NCBI RefSeq assembly: GCF_030252345.1
Contig: NZ_CP126980.1
Location: 8,255,501-8,319,500, forward strand
Length of the DNA: 64,000 nt
DNA from: Actinoplanes oblitus
GTDB taxonomy: Bacteria; Actinomycetota; Actinomycetes; Mycobacteriales; Micromonosporaceae
Direction: 5' to 3'
The notes beneath the pieces are model-generated. The model was given only the letters and a program-made list of their open reading frames with translations. It did not search any database and was not told where the DNA came from. Numbering within the stretch: position 1 is the stretch's first letter; each line of letters starts with the position of its first letter. Both the position numbers and the translations under genes were made by a program. This document shows, one piece after another, positions 13,177 through 22,593 of this stretch.

Positions 13177-13881
13177 GGAACTCCTCCCGTCGCGGACGGC
13201 CGGTGCCGGCGCCCTTGGGTGAACACCCTGCCCATCCGGCGTTTCCGACCCGTTGCGCGGCCGTGTCCCGACCGTCAAGCCGAGCAAGATATGCCGTAAG
13301 TCACAACTCACGGTAGGCAGATGAGGCTCCGGGATTCCCGCCCGCTGTCGGGTGTCGGACACTGGGCGCGGGGGCTGGGCGGGCGGCTCAAGCAGGGTTC
13401 GGCTTTGGCTTGGGGGCTGCTTTCCGGTTACGTCGGGGGCTTCGGCGGGCCGGCAGTCACTCCTTCGACTCGCCGGCCGAGCCCCACAACCCGACCGAGC
13501 CCAGCCCACAACCCGGCCAAGCCCAGCTCACAACCCGGCCGAGCTCAGTCCACAACAGCGCAGGCCCCGCCCACCCAGGGGGCAGCCCGCCTAAGACCAG
13601 TGTCCGAGAAAAACGCAAGATCGCCAGCGAGGCTGTGGACAACCCGCCGATGTGCATTCCCTCCTGAGGGAGATCGTCGAGCGCCTCGTCACCGTTGGCC
13701 GAGGTCCGCTGGTCGCCGCCACGGCCACCGGTCCACATCGCCGATGATCGCGACCAATGCGGATGCACCGCCGGTTACGGTCCGTGGTCACTTTTCCCGG
13801 TACGCCCGCAACGCCCACATCCGCCTGATCAGCCCACCCTCAAGATCAGTCCCGGCTGGCAGTGGCGGTGGTGTCGGGGGA
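13177..13881. other. Gene-free stretch with 22-bp tandem repeat
   Basis: No convincing coding region lies here although frames are open. At 13486-13573 there are four imperfect 22-bp copies built on ACAACCCGGCC-AGCCCAGC, giving a purine-poor strand. A perfect DnaA-box word TGTGGACAA is at 13634-13642. The stretch leads into the 63-bp array. Confidence 0.6.
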
Positions 13882-14535
13882 GCTGACACCACCGTGAGCA
13901 CCAGCCGCGAGACCTCGGCTGGCCGTCACGGTGCTATCCGGGGAACTGACACCACCGTGAGCACCAGCCACCAGACCTCGGCTGGCCATCACGGTGGTAT
14001 CCGGGGAACTGACACCACCGTGAGCACCAGCCGCGAGACCTCGGCTGGCCGTCACGGTGCTATCCGGGGAACTGACACCACCGTGAGCACCAGCCACCAG
14101 ACCTCGGCTGGCCGTCACGGTGCTATCCGGGGAACTGACACCACCGTGAGCACCAGCCACCAGACCTCGGCTGGCCGTCACGGTGCTATCCGGGGAACTG
14201 ACACCACCGTGAGCACCAGCCACCAGACCTCGGCTGGCCATCACGGTGCTATCCGGGGAACTGACACCACCGTGAGCACCAGCCACCAGACCTCGGCTGG
14301 CCATCACGGTGCTATCCGGGGAACTGACACCACCGTGAGCACCAGCCACCAGACCTCGGCTGGCCATCACGGTGCTATCCGGGGAACTGACACCACCGTG
14401 AGCACCAGCCACCAGACCTCGGCTGGCCATCACGGTGCTATCCGGGGAACTGACACCACCGTGAGCACCAGCCACCAGACCTCGGCTGGCCATCACGGTG
14501 GTATCCGGGGAACTGACACCACCGTGAGCGCCAGC
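13882..14535. repeat. 63-bp tandem array, ten units plus a partial unit
   Basis: Ten head-to-tail 63-bp units start at 13882 and repeat without any length change; a truncated eleventh copy starts at 14512. Each unit can fold: CACCGTGA pairs with TCACGGTG (8 bp), and inside it CCAGCC pairs with GGCTGG (6 bp) around a ten-base loop. Differences among units fall at unit positions 1, 26, 28, 44 and 53, all unpaired in this fold. The period is a multiple of three, so both strands read as 21-residue repeats. Those peptides resemble no known protein and the frames run on into non-triplet repeats, so I regard the array as non-coding. Confidence 0.9.
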
Positions 14536-14704: not shown

Positions 14705-14810
14705 CGGCCGCGACGGTGACCAACAGCCCCCGGGCCTGGCATCCCCCACCGTGACCAGCCACGGACCGCAAGGGTGGAATCGGCGGACGAAGGCCGGGAC
14801 GGCGGGACGC

Positions 14811-15090
14811 GGCGACGGCGAAGGCGCCAAGACAGCGGGGGCGACGAAACAGCGGGAGGCGACAAGAGGGCGGGAGGGGACGAGACAGCGGGAGAGCGAG
14901 ACAGCGGGGGACGAAACAGCGGGAGGCGACAAGGCAGCGGGAGTGCAAGACAGTCGAGGGAGCGAGACGGCGGAGGGGACGAGACAGCGGGAGGGCAAGA
15001 CAGTCGAGGGAGCGAGACGGCGGAGGGGACGAGACAGCGGGAGAGCGAGACAGCCGAGGGGGCGAGACGGTGGAGGGGCGAGACGGTGGA
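14811..15090. repeat. Purine-rich imperfect tandem repeats
   Basis: About 280 bp with a strongly purine-rich plus strand, built from words such as GAGACAGCGGGAG and GAGACGGCGGAGG. A 50-bp unit is duplicated almost exactly (copies beginning at 14945 and 14995). Long purine/pyrimidine asymmetry can favour triplex or R-loop formation. No gene is recognised. Confidence 0.75.
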
Positions 15091-15215
15091 GGGTGGCTGG
15101 CGGCGGGACCTGGACGCAGCCGACGGCTCCGGGACGGGTGCGCTGGGCGTACCGGAAATCGGCGGTCCGGGGTGGAAGCGGGCCGTGCGTGCCGCCGTGG
15201 GCCTAAAGTCGAGGG

Positions 15216-15335
15216 ATGATCTGCGAGCCTTGCCGGGAGCGGCGGCACGACGAGTGCAAGGGCGGATCGTGGTGCGACTGCCAGCACCGCGAGCCCGAGC
15301 CCGTCCCGCCGGTGACCGGGCCTCCCGGGCCGTGA
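15216..15335 (+). CDS. 39-residue Cys/His-rich small protein
   Basis: An ATG at 15216 opens a 39-codon frame beginning MICEPCRERRHDECKGGSWC. It contains C3, C6, H11, C14, C20, C22 and H24, a dense set of likely zinc ligands (CxxC, HxxC, CxCxH), followed by a Pro-rich tail. Its TGA overlaps the GTG start of the RibD-like gene by four bases (GTGA at 15332-15335), so the two are probably coupled. Compact HDxCxGGxWCxCQH-type micro-proteins occur in actinobacteria, but I know no function. GAGGG directly precedes the ATG, which is closer than usual. Confidence 0.65.
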   Translation: MICEPCRERRHDECKGGSWCDCQHREPEPVPPVTGPPGP

Positions 15336-16036
15336 TCCCGCTGCCGGAGGACCGCGACGGCCTGGTCGCCGCCTATCCGCGGCAGGACCGGCCGGTTCTG
15401 CGGGCCAACTTCATCGCCAGCGCCGACGGCGCGGTCTCGGTCGACGGCCTCTCGGCGGGGTTGCAGGGGCCGGGTGACAAGGAGGTCTTCGACACGCTGC
15501 GGATGGTCTGCGACGGGCTGATCGTGGCGGCCGGCACGGTGCGCGCCGAGCGCTACGACGCGCTGCGGCTGACCGCTTCCGATCGGGCCTGGCGGCGGGC
15601 TCGGGGGCTGCCGGAGTTCCCGCTCATGGTGATCGTCTCGGGGTCGCTGGACCTGGACCCGGCTCAGCTGATCTTCTCGGACGCGCCGATCCGGCCGATC
15701 GTGCTGACCCACCGGGCCGCGCCGGTCTCCCCGATCGCCGAGGTGGCCGAGGTGATAGCGGTCGGCGACGAGCGGGTCGACCTGGCCGCCGGGGTGCGGC
15801 TGCTGCACGAGCGCGGGGCCACCCAGCTGCTCTGCGAGGGCGGGCCGGCGCTGCTCGGCTCGATGATCGCGGCGGATCTGGTCGACGAGTTGTGCCTGAC
15901 CGTGGCGCCGCTGCTGATCGGTGGCCGCGCGGGCCGGATCGCGACCGGGCCGCCGGCGCCGCCGGTGTCGATGTCGCTGCGGCACGCCCTGGTCCGCGAC
16001 GACATGCTTTTCCTTCGGTACGCCCGGCGCCGCTGA
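15332..16036 (+). CDS. RibD C-terminal / dihydrofolate-reductase-like pyrimidine reductase
   Basis: 234 residues from a GTG start that overlaps the preceding micro-gene. Features fit the RibD_C family: RANFIASADGAVSVDG near the N terminus, GLIVAAGTVRAERY, FPLMVIVSGSLDL, and the NADPH-binding QLLCEGGPALLGSMI, then ELCLTVAPLLIGG. Stand-alone members in actinobacteria are annotated as pyrimidine reductases of riboflavin-type or related pathways; the real substrate is often unknown. No other riboflavin gene is nearby. The frame continues upstream through the purine-rich repeats, but that part is not protein-like. Confidence 0.85.
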   Translation: MIPLPEDRDGLVAAYPRQDRPVLRANFIASADGAVSVDGLSAGLQGPGDKEVFDTLRMVCDGLIVAAGTVRAERYDALRLTASDRAWRRARGLPEFPLMVIVSGSLDLDPAQLIFSDAPIRPIVLTHRAAPVSPIAEVAEVIAVGDERVDLAAGVRLLHERGATQLLCEGGPALLGSMIAADLVDELCLTVAPLLIGGRAGRIATGPPAPPVSMSLRHALVRDDMLFLRYARRR

Positions 16037-16131: not shown

Positions 16132-16181
16132 CCCGAACGGGTGGCCCACCGGCGGGCAATTTGTCGTACCCCTGAGGCACC

Positions 16182-17969
16182 ATGATCGGCGTGTCTGACG
16201 AAGCTGAGCCCGTCCGCGGCGGAAACCCGAAGGCCAACCCGGACCTGGATCCGGTCGGCCGGGTCCTCGGTACCGCCGACGCCACCCCGCTGCAGTTCTG
16301 GACGGCCGTCGCCCCGGGCAGCTACCTGCAGCTCGACGACGTCGTGGTGACCCAGCGCGAGCTGCCGGACCGCGAGCCGGTGACGATCGCCGGGGTGGTC
16401 ACCCAGGTCCGGGCGCGGCACGAGGGCGCGCAGTTCGACTCGGACGTGTTCGCCATCGCCGACGGCACGCTGCCGGCCATGGTCCAGGAGGCGGCCGAGG
16501 TCACCACCACCCGCGTCGACCCGGAGCTCTACGTGCCGCCGGCGCCGGGCGCGGTCGTGCACCGGGCCTCCGGCGAGGACCGCGACGCCGCCCTGCACTT
16601 CGACCGGATGGAGCGCCGGGTGCCGATGGGCACCGGCCGCGACGGCGTCCCGGTGTTCCTGAACGCGGACTTTCTCGACGGCACCCGCGGCGCCCACGTC
16701 TCGATCTCCGGCATCTCCGGGGTGGCCACCAAGACCAGCTTCGCCACGTTCCTGCTCTACTCGGTGTTCCGCTCCGGGCAGCTGGGCGCCGACGGGGCGA
16801 ACGCACGGGCGCTGATCTTCAACGTCAAGGGCGAGGACCTGCTCTTCCTGGACCACCCGAACACCAAACTGGACGAGCGGACCCGGGCGTACTACAAGCT
16901 GCTCGACCTGCCGGACAGCCCGTTCACCGACGTCCGGGTCTACGCGCCGCCCCGCCCCGGCGACCCGTCCGGCGCGCCCGACGTGAGCGGCCGGCTGACC
17001 GGGGTCGACGCGTTCTACTGGACGCTCGACGAGTTCTGCTCGGGCAAGCTGCTGCCTTATGTGTTCGCCGACGCCGACGACGAGCGCCAGCAGTACACCA
17101 TGGTGGTCCACTCGGTGACCGCCCATCTGCACCGGTTCGCGGTGCCGGCCGAGGGCGGGATCAGCATCGACGGGCGGCGCATCGGGTCGTACGGCGACCT
17201 GGTCGACCACATCGTCGACCAGCTGACCGACGACGAGACCCGGTCGATCTGGGCCGGCAGCGCGATCAACATGGGCACGGTGAACGCGTTCGCCCGCCGG
17301 CTGATCGGCAGCAAGCGCGACCTGTCCCGGCTGATCCGCGGGGACCTGGCGCAGCGCCGCCCGCACCAGATCAAGACCGCGGACAGCGCCCAGGTCACCG
17401 TCGTCGACCTGCACAACCTGCCGGACCGGGCGCAGCGGTTCGTGGTCGGCGTGACGCTCAAGAGCGAGTTCGAGGAGAAGGAGAAGTCCGGCACCGGCCG
17501 CCCGCTGCTCTTCGTGGTCCTCGACGAGCTGAACAAGTACGCGCCGCGCGAGGGCTCCTCCCCGATCAAGGAGGTGCTGCTGGACATCGCCGAGCGGGGC
17601 CGTTCGCTGGGCGTGATCCTGATCGGCGCCCAGCAGACCGCCAGCGAGGTGGAGCGGCGGATCGTGACGAACTCGGCGATCCGGGTGGTCGGCCGGCTCG
17701 ACCCGGCCGAGGCGTCCCGGCCGGAGTACGGCTTCCTGCCGCCGGCGATGCGACAGCGGGCGCTGCTGGCCCGGCCGGGCACGATGTTCGTCAACCAGCC
17801 GGACATCCCGGTCCCGCTCTGCGTGGAGTTCCCGTTCCCGGCCTGGGCCACCCGCAAGTCGGAGTCGGGCCCGCCGCCGGCCGAGTCGCTGCGCTCGATC
17901 GTGCAGTCCGCCGACCCGTTCGCCGTGATCGGCGGGCGGCCCGGTGGCGACGACGACATCCCGTTCTAG
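16182..17969 (+). CDS. herA: HerA-like hexameric DNA translocase ATPase
   Basis: 595 residues of the FtsK/HerA ATPase class. An N-terminal beta-rich region (about 25-130) resembles the HAS barrel. The nucleotide site is ISGISGVATKTS (174-186), where the residue before the catalytic Lys184 is Thr rather than the usual Gly. FNVKGEDLLFLD (213-224) follows. Walker B is LLFVVLDELNKYAP with D448/E449, then ERGRSLGVILIGAQQ with a candidate arginine finger and sensor Gln. It starts a four-gene run with sbcD (15-bp gap), sbcC and a NurA-like nuclease. In archaea HerA and NurA unwind and resect DNA ends with Mre11-Rad50; the same role is inferred here. An alternative GTG start lies nine bases downstream. 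Confidence 0.88.
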   Translation: MIGVSDEAEPVRGGNPKANPDLDPVGRVLGTADATPLQFWTAVAPGSYLQLDDVVVTQRELPDREPVTIAGVVTQVRARHEGAQFDSDVFAIADGTLPAMVQEAAEVTTTRVDPELYVPPAPGAVVHRASGEDRDAALHFDRMERRVPMGTGRDGVPVFLNADFLDGTRGAHVSISGISGVATKTSFATFLLYSVFRSGQLGADGANARALIFNVKGEDLLFLDHPNTKLDERTRAYYKLLDLPDSPFTDVRVYAPPRPGDPSGAPDVSGRLTGVDAFYWTLDEFCSGKLLPYVFADADDERQQYTMVVHSVTAHLHRFAVPAEGGISIDGRRIGSYGDLVDHIVDQLTDDETRSIWAGSAINMGTVNAFARRLIGSKRDLSRLIRGDLAQRRPHQIKTADSAQVTVVDLHNLPDRAQRFVVGVTLKSEFEEKEKSGTGRPLLFVVLDELNKYAPREGSSPIKEVLLDIAERGRSLGVILIGAQQTASEVERRIVTNSAIRVVGRLDPAEASRPEYGFLPPAMRQRALLARPGTMFVNQPDIPVPLCVEFPFPAWATRKSESGPPPAESLRSIVQSADPFAVIGGRPGGDDDIPF

Positions 17970-17984
17970 GTCTAAGGTTCTGCG

Positions 17985-19133
17985 ATGCGCATCCTGCACA
18001 CCTCCGACTGGCACGTCGGCAAGGTTCTCAAGGGCCGCGACCGGCGTGACGAGCACCGCCGGGTGCTCGCCCAGGTGATCGAGATCGCCCAGGCGGAGAA
18101 ACCCGACCTGGTGATCGTCGCCGGTGACCTCTACGACACCGCGGCGCCGACGGCGGAGTCGACGAAGCTGGTCACCCGGGCGCTGTCCGCCCTGCGGCGC
18201 ACCGGCGCGCGGGTGGTGGCGATCGGCGGCAACCACGACAACGGCCAGGCCCTGGACGCGCTGCGGCCCTGGGCCGACGCGGCCGGCATCGAGTTGCGCG
18301 GCTCCTTCGACAACCCGGCGGACCTGCTCATCGAGGGGACGACCGAGGGGGGCGAGCGCTGGCGGCTGGTCGCCCTGCCGTTCCTGTCGCAGCGGTACGC
18401 GGTCCGCGCCGTCGAGATGTACGACCTGACCGAGGCCGAGTCGAATCAGACGTATGCCGACCTGATCGCCCGGTTGCTCGGCAAGCTGAGCGAGCCGTTC
18501 GCCGAGCCCGGCGTGATCAACCTGATCACCTCGCACCTGACCATGGTCGGGGCGAGCACCGGCGGCGGCGAGCGGGAGGCGCACACGATCATGGGCTACG
18601 CGGTGCCGTCCACGGTCTTCCCGCAGAACACCCACTACGTCGCGCTCGGCCACCTGCACCGGTCGCAACGGGTGATCGGCCCCTGCCCGGTGCGGTACTG
18701 CGGTAGCCCGCTGGCGATCGACTTCGGCGAGGAGGAGAACGTCTGCTCGGTGGCGATCGTCGAGGTCGGGGTGGACAAGGCGGCCCAGGTCCGGGACGTG
18801 CCGGTGACCTCGGCGCTGACCCTGCGGACGGTCCGCGGCACCCTCGAGCAGCTCGCCACGGTGAACCTTCCGGAGGCCTGGCTGCGTGTCCTGGTGCGCG
18901 AGGCGCCCCGCCCCGGCCTGCGCGAGGACGTGCAGGAGCTCCTGCCGAACGCCTTGGAGGTCCGCATCGACCCGGACATGCTGCCGGACCGCGCCGGTGC
19001 CCGGTCGGCGGAACGCGCCGGTCGCTCCCCGCGCGAGCTCTTCGGCGACTACCTGGACAGCCGCGGCAACGCCGAGGAGGGCGTGCGCGAACTCTTCGAC
19101 GAGCTGTACGACGAGGTGAGCAGCGACAAATGA
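17985..19133 (+). CDS. sbcD: Exonuclease SbcD/Mre11-family nuclease
   Basis: 382 residues with the complete metallophosphoesterase motif series: D8 and H10 in TSDWHVGK, D48 in GDLYD, GGNHD at 81-85, TSH at 182-184, and GHLH at 222-225. These coordinate two manganese ions in the Mre11 nuclease. The C-terminal part (about 280-382) is the capping and SbcC-binding region. The usual SbcD length is near 400. It follows herA by 15 bp and overlaps sbcC by four bases (ATGA), so the subunits are made in coupled fashion. Confidence 0.95.
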   Translation: MRILHTSDWHVGKVLKGRDRRDEHRRVLAQVIEIAQAEKPDLVIVAGDLYDTAAPTAESTKLVTRALSALRRTGARVVAIGGNHDNGQALDALRPWADAAGIELRGSFDNPADLLIEGTTEGGERWRLVALPFLSQRYAVRAVEMYDLTEAESNQTYADLIARLLGKLSEPFAEPGVINLITSHLTMVGASTGGGEREAHTIMGYAVPSTVFPQNTHYVALGHLHRSQRVIGPCPVRYCGSPLAIDFGEEENVCSVAIVEVGVDKAAQVRDVPVTSALTLRTVRGTLEQLATVNLPEAWLRVLVREAPRPGLREDVQELLPNALEVRIDPDMLPDRAGARSAERAGRSPRELFGDYLDSRGNAEEGVRELFDELYDEVSSDK

Positions 19134-21628
19134 GGCCCATTCGGCTGGACATGTCCGGTTTCACGGTGTTCCGTGAGCAGACCACTGTCGACTTCACCGA
19201 CGCTGATTACTTCGCCCTGGTCGGCCCGACCGGCTCGGGCAAGTCGACGGTGCTCGACGCCATCTGCTTCGCGCTCTACGGCCAGGTCCCGCGCTGGGGC
19301 GGCGCCCGGGGCATCGGCAACGCGCTCGCCCCGTCCGCCGCCGAGGCCCGGGTCCGCCTGGTCTTCGAGTCGGCCGGCGACCGCTACGTCGCGACCCGGG
19401 TGGTCCGGCGCGACGGGCGGGGCAACGTCAAGACCTCCGGCGCCGGCCTGCAGCTGATGCCGCCCGGCTTCGACGTGACCAAGCTCGACACCGGCATGGA
19501 CCTCGAGGACCTCGGTGAGGTGCTGGCCGGCGTCCCCGCCGAGATGGACGCCGCGGTGCTGCACGCGGTCGGCTTGCCTTACGAACAGTTCACCAGCTGC
19601 GTGGTGCTGCCGCAGGGCCAGTTCGCCGACTTCCTGCACGCCAAGCCGGCCACCCGGCAGCAGATCCTGGTCAACCTGCTGGGCCTGCACGTCTACGAGG
19701 AGGTGCAGGTCAAGGCGGCCGAGCGGGGCAAGGCGGCGGAGGCCAAGCTGACCGTCGTCGACCAGGCGCTGGCCGCGCTGGAGGACGCCACCGACGAGGC
19801 GGTCGCGGAGGCCGCCGGGCACCTGGCCCGGATGCGCGAGCTGACCGCCGCGGTGGAGGCCGCGATGCCGGGGCTGCGCGCGGCCCGGGCGGCCGAGGAC
19901 GCCGCGCGGGACACCCGGGACACCCTCGACGCGGAGCTGCGGCTGCTGGCGTCCGTGCGTACCCCGGCCAACCTGGCCGAGGCGACCACCGCGATCGCCG
20001 CGGCCCGGACCGCCGCGACCGAGGCGGCCGAGGCGGTGCACGAGGCCGAGGAGGCCGAGGAGAAGGTCCGCGGCGAGCTGACCGCGGCCGGCGACGCCGG
20101 GTCGCTGCGGCTGGCCCTGGACCGGCACACCGAGCTGGAGCGGCTCATCGAGCAGGAGGGCTGGTTCGCCGGCAAGGTGTCGGTCGCCGAGGTGGAGTGC
20201 CGGGACGCGCGCGCCTCGGCCGACCTGGCCGAGTCCGAGCACATCGGCGCCCAGCAGTTGCTGGAGCAGGCCCGGCAGGACTACCGCGACGCCCAGCAGC
20301 GCGACCGGGCCGTCGCGCTGCGCGGGCACCTGACCCCCGGGGACGACTGCCCGGTCTGCGAACAGCCGGTCACCGTGGTGCCGGAGGTGCCGCGCGAGTC
20401 GGCGGTGCGCCTGGCCGAGGCGGCCGGGGCGGCCGCCCGGCAGGCCGCCGAGCAGGCCACCGCCCGCTGGCAGGAGCGCGACGCGGTGGCCCGCAACCTC
20501 GAGTCCGACCTGGAGCGCAAGCGCGGGCAGTACGAGCACCACCTCACCCGGCTCGCCGAGGTGCGCAAAGCCGTGCAGGGGCTGCCCGGGGTGGCCGCGA
20601 TCCAGCAGCAGCTCGCCGAGTTCGGCCGGCTGCAGGGCCGGCTGGAGGACGCCACCGCGGCGGTCCGCACGGCCCGCGATCGGCTGCGGTCCGCCCAGAC
20701 CGCGGTCCGCGCCGCCGAGGAGCAGCAGCGCACCGCGTGGCGCCGGTTCGACGAGGTACGCGACGGCGTGGCCCGGTTCGTGCCGCCGCCCGCCGACCGG
20801 GACGACCTGGCCGGCGCCTGGCGGACCCTGGTCGAGTGGGCCCGGGCCGAGCACGCCGCCCGCTCCACGGCCCGCACCGAGGCGGACGCCACCGTCGACG
20901 CCGCGCACGACGCCACGGCCGCCGCCCGCTCGGCGATCATGGCGCTGTTCACCGACGCCGGGGTCCAGCCGCCGGCCACCACGCCGGCCGACGCCGAGGC
21001 CACCCTGATCCGGGCCGCCGCGGTGACCGCCGAGCGGGCCGAGGCGGCCTGGCAGCGCCTGGTCGAGCGGCTCGCGCAGGCTCGCGAGATGCAGGACCAG
21101 CGGATGGCCCTGCAGCAGGCCGGCCGGGTGGCGAAATCGCTGGCCGGGCACCTGCGGGCGAACAACTTCGAGCGCTGGCTGCTGGAGGAGGCGCTGGACC
21201 TGCTGGTCGACGGCGCCTCCCGGATCCTGCGCGAGCTCACCGGCGGGCAGTACGAGCTGATGCACGACAAGGGCGAGTTCTTCGTGATCGACCATCACGA
21301 CGCGGGACTGCGCCGGGGCGTGCGCACGCTCTCCGGCGGCGAGACGTTCCAGGCGTCGCTGGCCCTCGCGCTCGCCCTCTCCGAGCAGCTGGCCGGGATG
21401 AGCACCACGGCGGCCAGCCTGGAGTCGATCGTGCTGGACGAGGGCTTCGGCACGCTGGACGCGGCCACCCTCGACGTGGTCGCCGCCACGCTGGAGAATC
21501 TGGCCGCCCGCGGTGACCGGATGGTCGGACTGGTCACCCACGTGCACGCGCTCGCCGAGCGGGTGCCGGTGCGGTTCGAGGTGCGCAAGGACGCCCGGAC
21601 CGCGCACGTCGAGAGGGTCGGCCTGTGA
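19130..21628 (+). CDS. sbcC: Exonuclease SbcC/Rad50-family SMC ATPase
   Basis: 832 residues. Walker A is GPTGSGKST (32-40). Two long Ala/Glu/Arg-rich coiled-coil arms flank a zinc hook with C407-P-V-C410. The ABC signature LSGGETF begins at about residue 734 and Walker B is IVLDEGFGTLD with D770/E771, followed by a THVHALAE switch. This is the full Rad50 plan on a short coiled coil compared with E. coli SbcC (~1050). With SbcD it forms the end-processing nuclease complex. Its start overlaps sbcD (ATGA) and its stop overlaps the NurA-like gene (GTGA). Confidence 0.95.
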   Translation: MRPIRLDMSGFTVFREQTTVDFTDADYFALVGPTGSGKSTVLDAICFALYGQVPRWGGARGIGNALAPSAAEARVRLVFESAGDRYVATRVVRRDGRGNVKTSGAGLQLMPPGFDVTKLDTGMDLEDLGEVLAGVPAEMDAAVLHAVGLPYEQFTSCVVLPQGQFADFLHAKPATRQQILVNLLGLHVYEEVQVKAAERGKAAEAKLTVVDQALAALEDATDEAVAEAAGHLARMRELTAAVEAAMPGLRAARAAEDAARDTRDTLDAELRLLASVRTPANLAEATTAIAAARTAATEAAEAVHEAEEAEEKVRGELTAAGDAGSLRLALDRHTELERLIEQEGWFAGKVSVAEVECRDARASADLAESEHIGAQQLLEQARQDYRDAQQRDRAVALRGHLTPGDDCPVCEQPVTVVPEVPRESAVRLAEAAGAAARQAAEQATARWQERDAVARNLESDLERKRGQYEHHLTRLAEVRKAVQGLPGVAAIQQQLAEFGRLQGRLEDATAAVRTARDRLRSAQTAVRAAEEQQRTAWRRFDEVRDGVARFVPPPADRDDLAGAWRTLVEWARAEHAARSTARTEADATVDAAHDATAAARSAIMALFTDAGVQPPATTPADAEATLIRAAAVTAERAEAAWQRLVERLAQAREMQDQRMALQQAGRVAKSLAGHLRANNFERWLLEEALDLLVDGASRILRELTGGQYELMHDKGEFFVIDHHDAGLRRGVRTLSGGETFQASLALALALSEQLAGMSTTAASLESIVLDEGFGTLDAATLDVVAATLENLAARGDRMVGLVTHVHALAERVPVRFEVRKDARTAHVERVGL

Positions 21629-22593
21629 CACGGATGTTCGTCGACGCGTGGGATCCGGCGTACGGCGCCTCGTTCGAGGGCGGCGACGGGGCGGGACCGG
21701 CCTCGCCCAGCAGCGCGCAGGTGGACGTCGACGTGGAGGTGCCGGCCGCCGAGTGGGCGCCGGTCGACGTGCCGCGCGGCGCCCGGCCGCCGGACGTGGT
21801 GTTCCTGGTCGACGGGGTGCGCCGCAACGACGCCCAGATCTGGACCGCCGAGGACGACGGGACCACGTTCGCCGGGCTGGCCGCCTCGTTCGCGGCCGGC
21901 GTGGTGCGGTGCGACCTGGCGCACGGCGCGGCCGAGCTGGTCGCGGCCCGGGTCGGCCGGGGGCTGTTCACCGCGAGCCCGTCGGTCGCCGGCGTGCAGG
22001 CCGGCTCGGTGCACTACGAGATCCACCGGATCGCGGGCACCGGCGAGGCGAGCAAGCTGCAGGCCGCCGTGCAGGGCCCGCTCACCGCGCTGGAGATCGA
22101 CATCTCGGCGGAGGCGCGGACCGGCGGCTCGGACGGCGCCGACCTGCTGATCGTGGACGGGCCGCTGCGGGACCGGCGGCAGCTGCCGCGCACCATCGGA
22201 TACATCAAGACTCAGCAGAGCCGCTATCTGCCCGCCGCCCAGGAGGCGATAGTGCCCCGGCTGCGGGCCGGCCAGCGGACCCCGGTCTTCCATCTGGGCA
22301 CCCGCTGGGGCGGCTGGTCGTGGTACCTGCGACTGCCGAACGGGACCGGCGCGCCGTGGTCCGGGATCGTCCGGGTGGAGTGCTCGCCGGAGCTGAGCGT
22401 CGAGCAGGCGATCGAGCTGGCCGGGCTGTCCGGGGCGACGCTGCCGCGGTTCGCGTCGGCGTCGTACAAGGATCCGCGGGCCCCGCAGAACCTGGTGCCG
22501 ATCGCCGGGCTGGAGCGGCGGCTGCGCGGGATGCTCGGCGATTCGCGGGTGCTGCACCGGGCGCTGGCACTGGCGTCGGCGCGCTCCCGCTGA
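21625..22593 (+). CDS. NurA-like nuclease
   Basis: 322 residues from a GTG whose GTGA overlaps the sbcC stop. The pattern is that of NurA 5'-3' nucleases: a core strand ending in Asp (VVFLVDGVRRND, D63), a second core Asp (LLIVDGPLRDRR, D178), IGYIKTQQSRYL, VFHLGTRWGGWSWYLRL, IVRVECSPE, and a C-terminal DPRAPQNLVPIAGLERRL where NurA proteins usually carry a Tyr/His pair. That His is not obvious here. Membership is inferred from these motifs and from the HerA-Mre11-Rad50 neighbours, the canonical archaeal partners. HerA-NurA acts as a DNA-end resection motor and nuclease. An ATG at 21634 is an alternative start. Confidence 0.75.
   Translation: MTRMFVDAWDPAYGASFEGGDGAGPASPSSAQVDVDVEVPAAEWAPVDVPRGARPPDVVFLVDGVRRNDAQIWTAEDDGTTFAGLAASFAAGVVRCDLAHGAAELVAARVGRGLFTASPSVAGVQAGSVHYEIHRIAGTGEASKLQAAVQGPLTALEIDISAEARTGGSDGADLLIVDGPLRDRRQLPRTIGYIKTQQSRYLPAAQEAIVPRLRAGQRTPVFHLGTRWGGWSWYLRLPNGTGAPWSGIVRVECSPELSVEQAIELAGLSGATLPRFASASYKDPRAPQNLVPIAGLERRLRGMLGDSRVLHRALALASARSR

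Follow-up and report, generated by a model that had tools for sequence, protein, structure and literature searches.

The window, a 64,000-nucleotide stretch of Actinoplanes oblitus DNA at the 8.26 Mb point of a 9.81-Mb one-contig genome, carries herA, sbcD, sbcC and nurA in what we consider likely to be a chromosomal, probably DNA-damage-inducible operon for DNA-end processing, a function predicted from sequence. Sequence and fold comparisons reveal four components, intact active-site motifs, conserved clustering and a damage-type promoter element, and it is on these that the role in double-strand-break repair, raised in a preliminary description of this DNA, appears likely as a role in DNA-end processing.

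All four genes lie on the plus strand, with the frames and spacing that the preliminary description had read from the list of open reading frames. As called from its ATG, herA spans 16182–17969 (595 aa) and is followed, after a 15 bp gap, by sbcD (17985–19133, 382 aa; Mre11-family nuclease), sbcC (19130–21628, 832 aa; Rad50-family ATPase) and nurA (21625–22593, GTG start, 322 aa; RNase-H-like nuclease), the last two junctions being 4 bp overlaps. Profile and structure comparisons matched each product to its family, and the set is complete, as had been claimed. Immediately upstream of herA lies a RibD_C-type reductase gene (14774–16036); 45 of the 80 named loci, these 80 being the best of 581 confirmed stretches, have a relative of it on the same strand no more than 900 bp upstream. 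Shortly upstream of this gene, a tandem array (13866–14535; 63-bp unit, 10.6 copies, 97% matches) is crossed by open reading frames on both strands.

The match of HerA to its Deinococcus radiodurans counterpart (7f6d_B) has E 1e-148 and covers residues 19–322 and 363–562 as two stretches, while the other solved HerA structures matched at E ≤ 1 gave only E 0.003, 0.054 and 0.25 (organisms unnamed in the output). No Pfam family was matched at E ≤ 10, and the NCBIfam helicase HerA model scored 10.2 bits, with a cut-off of 970. The Walker A motif, GISGVATKTS, is non-canonical and identical to that of D. radiodurans HerA. Numbered from ATG 16182, Walker A K184/T185 and Walker B D448/E449 are invariant across 19 aligned rows, the pore residue R456 is nearly invariant, and the pore residue R513, which aligns with Deinococcus R552, is other than arginine in two loci (L043 and L046). 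Of the acidic triad D78, E80 and D81 with which Deinococcus HerA binds NurA, D78 corresponds to D88 here, the other two being F and A; these acidic residues align poorly outside Deinococcus, according to passages of PMC9960219. By these sequence matches HerA, a predicted hexameric DNA-pumping ATPase, is of the bacterial (Deinococcus/Thermotoga) type.

The product of the last gene matched Deinococcus NurA (7f6d_H) at E 4.7e-20, has the NurA fold and, by alignment, carries D63, K195, R285 and W9 at the positions of D53, K201, R309 and W8 of the Deinococcus protein, D63, K195 and R285 being invariant in 52 of 52 rows. Fold and catalytic residues agree with the earlier assignment as NurA, of predicted nuclease activity, and this NurA too is of the bacterial (Deinococcus/Thermotoga) type. 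The profile check that had been proposed, against Pfam NurA (PF09376), gave a match for the 322-residue product, at 11.8 bits and below the 21-bit cut-off; a six-frame search of the whole genome with PF09376 returned nothing at E ≤ 0.001, and precomputed annotation places the family on some relatives at 42–54% identity to the window protein. The failure lies with the model, not with the fold. The window NurA is 95% identical to a protein labelled Actinoplanes ianthinogenes. The expectation that the gene would easily be called hypothetical holds for the NCBI and JGI names listed (‘hypothetical’ or ‘uncharacterized protein’) and fails for several UniRef entries, named ‘NurA domain-containing protein’. 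A gene often labelled hypothetical is what completes the four-protein set.

Counting the own genome, NurA was found in 24 of 148 genomes of the phylum and HerA, at E ≤ 1e-20, in 21 of 394 genomes of the class, in four families. Of the 20 HerA-positive relatives in the class, 19 have the order HerA-SbcD-SbcC-NurA, the other locus (L080) being cut by a contig end after SbcD. Among the named loci (best 80 of 581), all of which are Micromonosporaceae or Glycomycetaceae to judge by their titles and taxonomy, 67 have the full order, 11 are cut after SbcC and one (L132) after HerA, and one from a MAG (L172) has HerA without these neighbours within 6.1 kb; a start that gives the 4-bp SbcC-NurA overlap is available in 35 of the 67. 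With this order in 67 of 80, the four-gene arrangement is not due to chance, and the co-occurrence of NurA with HerA in related genomes, on which the preliminary description had staked its claim, is borne out by both sets of loci. Across the phylum, 22 of 23 loci other than our own have one of two gene orders: 13 have NurA, HerA, then SbcD and SbcC (the contig of L041 ending after HerA), and nine have SbcD-SbcC-NurA, of which seven carry HerA upstream and two have none on the locus. At L027, NurA stands alone, none of the three partners being detected over 8.9 kb upstream and 1.3 kb downstream.

In four phylum loci (L028, L030, L032, L043) HerA and SbcD are 1.5–3.8 kb apart, with intervening genes. 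An extra conserved partner between the two was considered and rejected, as six inserted frames scanned against Pfam gave no recurring family: we found a pyridine nucleotide-disulphide oxidoreductase, an FAD oxidoreductase, a GNAT acetyltransferase, a CWB2 cell-wall-binding protein and two unmatched frames (L030, L032), which may be related to each other.

SbcD matched TIGR00619 above its cut-off (E 6e-50, 170 bits), and SbcC matched TIGR00618 at E 4e-74 and 250 bits, under the model cut-off of 478.5, as well as the SbcC structure 6s6v (E 9e-41), with Walker A at 32, a CPVC zinc hook at residue 407, the signature at 734 and Walker B at 768. The SbcCD structures matched by the two proteins are of E. 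coli type, and by sequence the pair is bacterial SbcCD, not archaeal Mre11/Rad50. The operon SbcD is the sole SbcD in its genome at E ≤ 0.001. At E ≤ 1e-20, SbcD occurs in 233 of the 394 class genomes; among the matches listed, those of at least 336 bits belong to exactly the 21 HerA-positive genomes, and the remaining rows reach at most 169 bits at 28–38% identity, apart from an intermediate SbcD of 236 bits, split over contigs, in a genome (G332) that has operon-type SbcD and SbcC fragments without a HerA match.

In a tree of 62 SbcD rows, which carries long-branch flags, the 31 order-A rows, G332 included, form one group (support 100/98); 15 ordinary actinomycete SbcD are set off by a branch of 1.3, and the order-B SbcD fall elsewhere on the operon side, with four paralogues. 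L176, L178, L180 and L182, SbcD paralogues of HerA-negative actinomycetes, were seen on the HerA-linked side of this tree. Four HerA-positive genomes (G208, G233, G405, G515) have two SbcD matches each, and in G233 and G405 the second copy groups with the ordinary SbcD.

herA is preceded by a predicted RecA-independent damage-type promoter element, for which induction and PafBC binding are putative. This RecA-NDp/PafBC-type element, TTGTCGTAC-N8-CACCAT, lies on the plus strand at 16161–16183, with its TGTC box at 16162–16165 and its −10-like hexamer at 16178–16183. The RecA-independent damage motif is given as tTGTCRgtg-8nt-TannnT in passages of PMC5656591; in mycobacteria it is controlled by PafBC, whose regulon includes RecA, UvrABC and AdnAB (passages of PMC8223512). 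Spacing and TTGTCR agree at herA, where TAC stands for gtg and C replaces T as the first base of the −10; the recA and uvrA sites of the same genome also carry TAC. Because the −10 overlaps ATG 16182 and GTG 16191 lies 7 nt after the element, herA probably starts at this GTG (16191–17969), a position also favoured by 25 of the 45 other genomic sites of this type, where a frame start 6–8 nt past the element, fitting leaderless mRNAs, is among the candidates shown.

Genome-wide, TGTCRTAC-N8-YANNNT has 46 matches (reversed pattern, 0) and TTGTCR-N11-TANNNT likewise 46 (reversed form, 7). The element also precedes recA, uvrA, uvrB, dinB-type, polA-type and radA-like genes. We scanned 30 frames downstream of the 45 non-herA sites against Pfam at E ≤ 1e-8: nine have other domains, 11 have none, and 10 are repair, replication or helicase proteins (RecA, UvrA, UvrB, a DinB-type polymerase, a PolA-type 5′-3′ exonuclease, a DNA_pol_A protein, a DnaQ-type exonuclease, an AlkZ-like protein, a DEAD helicase and a RadA-like protein, so named from its sequence by eye where Pfam gives AAA_25/KaiC), which leaves 20 of the 30 without a DNA-repair domain. 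The genome encodes a PafC-type regulator (PF19187, E 1e-41). A PafC-like WYL regulator (L234/L274, 1645257–1645606 in the genome) itself stands behind a damage-type element, as do two DUF3375 genes (L242 and L252, near 2470897 and 5466255). DUF3375 is the family of Wadjet JetA, and these sites would connect a condensin of plasmid defence with the response to DNA damage. A search of the window for the LexA-like site GAAC-N4-GTTC found none.

Conservation of the element was assessed against random stretches that are mostly coding DNA, drawn with one seed each, so that the true background upstream of genes lies above the figures quoted. Upstream of herA in 79 named loci and the window, TGTCR-N11-YANNNT occurs in 66 of 80, against 56 of 4000 random stretches, and TGTCRTAC-N8-YANNNT in 42 of 80, against 28 of 4000, the YANNNT and TGTCRTAC forms having been chosen after seeing the aligned upstreams of the own family; the reversed pattern gives 0 of 80 against 8 of 4000. 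An in-frame start follows TGTCR-N11-YANNNT by 6–9 nt in 43 of the 66. In other classes, where 19 of the 23 phylum loci were testable, TGTCR-N11-TANNNT, fixed earlier together with TTGTCR-N11-TANNNT, precedes the first gene at 8 of 19 loci against 23 of 4600 stretches, and [TC]GTCR-N11-TANNNT, a form chosen after the strict-form phylum counts, is no more than 90 bp away from that gene at 13 of 19 against 18 of 6900; 11 of the 13 sit at −28 to −30, and both gene orders are represented. No clear element was seen in the remaining HerA-positive families of this class (f61, f62, f79), which gave 0 of 17 for the strict forms and 2 of 17 for the relaxed [TC]GTCR-N11-TANNNT (12 of 5100 random stretches). 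Scoring by the full mycobacterial consensus is only suggestive: the window agrees at 8 of 12 positions, and at least 10 are reached in 7 of 80 herA upstreams, a score also attained by 4 of 1600 shuffles and by 2 of 400 random places.

These observations are most economically read as an end-processing operon that is induced by damage. The PafC-type regulator of this genome would switch the operon on once DNA is damaged, SbcCD would bind and open a broken or blocked DNA end, and a HerA hexamer would thread the duplex and pump DNA into a NurA dimer, which would trim the 5′ strand and leave a 3′ tail for RecA, the operon acting alongside the AdnAB-like pair described below. We infer the SbcCD opening, HerA pumping and NurA 5′ trimming from Deinococcus biochemistry, in which NurA-HerA performs translocation-coupled 5′ resection in vitro (PMC9960219, in part), and from archaeal precedent. 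Damage induction need not equal a pro-survival role, and the operon may even lower survival, because the Deinococcus nurA-herA double mutant shows roughly tenfold higher resistance to UV and mitomycin C (passages of PMC9960219). Reports from Thermus conflict, nurA/herA mutants being more resistant according to work cited in PMC7776575 and a hepA mutant more UV-sensitive according to a passage of PMC5448004; together with the Deinococcus mutant, they leave the role of bacterial HerA-NurA disputed.

The own genome has AdnAB-like adjacent frames with UvrD and PD-(D/E)XK domains, the upstream subunit being clipped at the edge of the stretch fetched. Judged by frame length and spacing, a large-frame PDDEXK pair of this kind is adjacent in 14 of the 16 relatives examined among 43 that are HerA/NurA-positive (G126 and G147 are without it). 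The operon as a replacement for AdnAB is thereby ruled out; it adds to the AdnAB-like pair, which leaves it potentially redundant. No element was found at this pair in the whole-genome hit lists of TTGTCR-N11-TANNNT and TGTCRTAC-N8-YANNNT. These pairs lend weight to the strongest alternative, in which SbcCD would lead in clearing stalled forks, palindromes and cross-links, HerA-NurA would be a trimming accessory and AdnAB would resect for recombination. Bacterial SbcCD acts on palindromes and cross-links (PMC2288612, in part), and the only SbcD found in the genome is that of the operon. We regard this alternative as possible, yet the weaker candidate, as taken alone it leaves unexplained why HerA and NurA are retained with SbcCD across classes and in two gene orders.

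HerA-nuclease pairs occur in defence systems, and the preliminary description had floated an anti-plasmid or anti-phage nuclease; HerA-NurA and SbcCD would then degrade the DNA ends of incoming plasmids or phages. Such pairs are documented in the abstract of PMC11291478, and positive evidence in the window consists of PADLOC results in which HerA weakly matched mad8 (E 3e-8) and HerA models, and SbcC weakly matched mad3 (E 9e-27), whereas NurA had no PADLOC match at E ≤ 1. We consider a defence module unlikely. Its promoter element is that of a repair regulon, a same-strand RibD_C gene adjoins the unit in 45 of the 80 named loci, and the unit is near-uniform in these loci, where a defence island would be expected to come and go between members of a family; this last argument is weak, because the 80 were chosen by similarity as the best of 581. 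Recent acquisition from archaea, whose thermophiles have the same four-protein set (PMC2288612, in part), is highly improbable, and the label ‘archaeal type’ given earlier is rejected with it, since in structure comparisons HerA and NurA, of Deinococcus/Thermotoga type, are much closer to bacterial than to archaeal entries, and SbcD and SbcC match bacterial SbcCD models.

Returning to the damage-induced end-processing operon, we tentatively propose, at somewhat less than even confidence, that in several Actinomycetota classes HerA and NurA, together with an SbcCD lineage dedicated to them, constitute one co-inherited four-protein resection machine under a RecA-independent damage response, parallel to AdnAB and overlooked as a regulated unit. 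If true, this would be a further bacterial end-resection pathway, and the combination of a conserved operon, its own SbcCD lineage, a damage-type promoter and culturable actinomycetes makes PafBC-dependent induction and an end-processing defect testable.

That Actinobacteria have HerA and NurA is already stated in a passage of PMC8708640. The titles, abstract openings and selected passages surveyed held no report of this operon or promoter in actinobacteria, although 2004 papers (Iyer, Constantinesco) may mention bacterial clusters; sbcD and sbcC are listed in the genome paper on Rubrobacter radiotolerans, whose main text nowhere uses the words HerA and NurA. The archaeal herA-nurA-mre11-rad50 operon, co-transcribed in Sulfolobus acidocaldarius (PMC2288612, in part), is the same functional set. 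Among bacteria, a published Oceanithermus profundus cluster, nurA-hepA-sbcD-sbcC, holds the same four proteins by its description in passages of PMC5448004, and its order is that of the second actinobacterial arrangement, whereas the window has nurA last. With respect to the D. radiodurans NurA-HerA system (PDB 7f6d; PMC9960219, in part), the window differs in joining herA and nurA to sbcD-sbcC in one operon, in a HerA that keeps the NurA-binding acidic residues only in part, and in its actinobacterial damage-type promoter element. That element resembles the promoter form TTGTCR..TAnnnT of the mycobacterial PafBC regulon (passages of PMC5656591 and PMC8223512) in TTGTCR and in spacing, with recA and uvrA in both regulons, and differs from it by the TGTCRTAC variant and the −10 CACCAT at herA.
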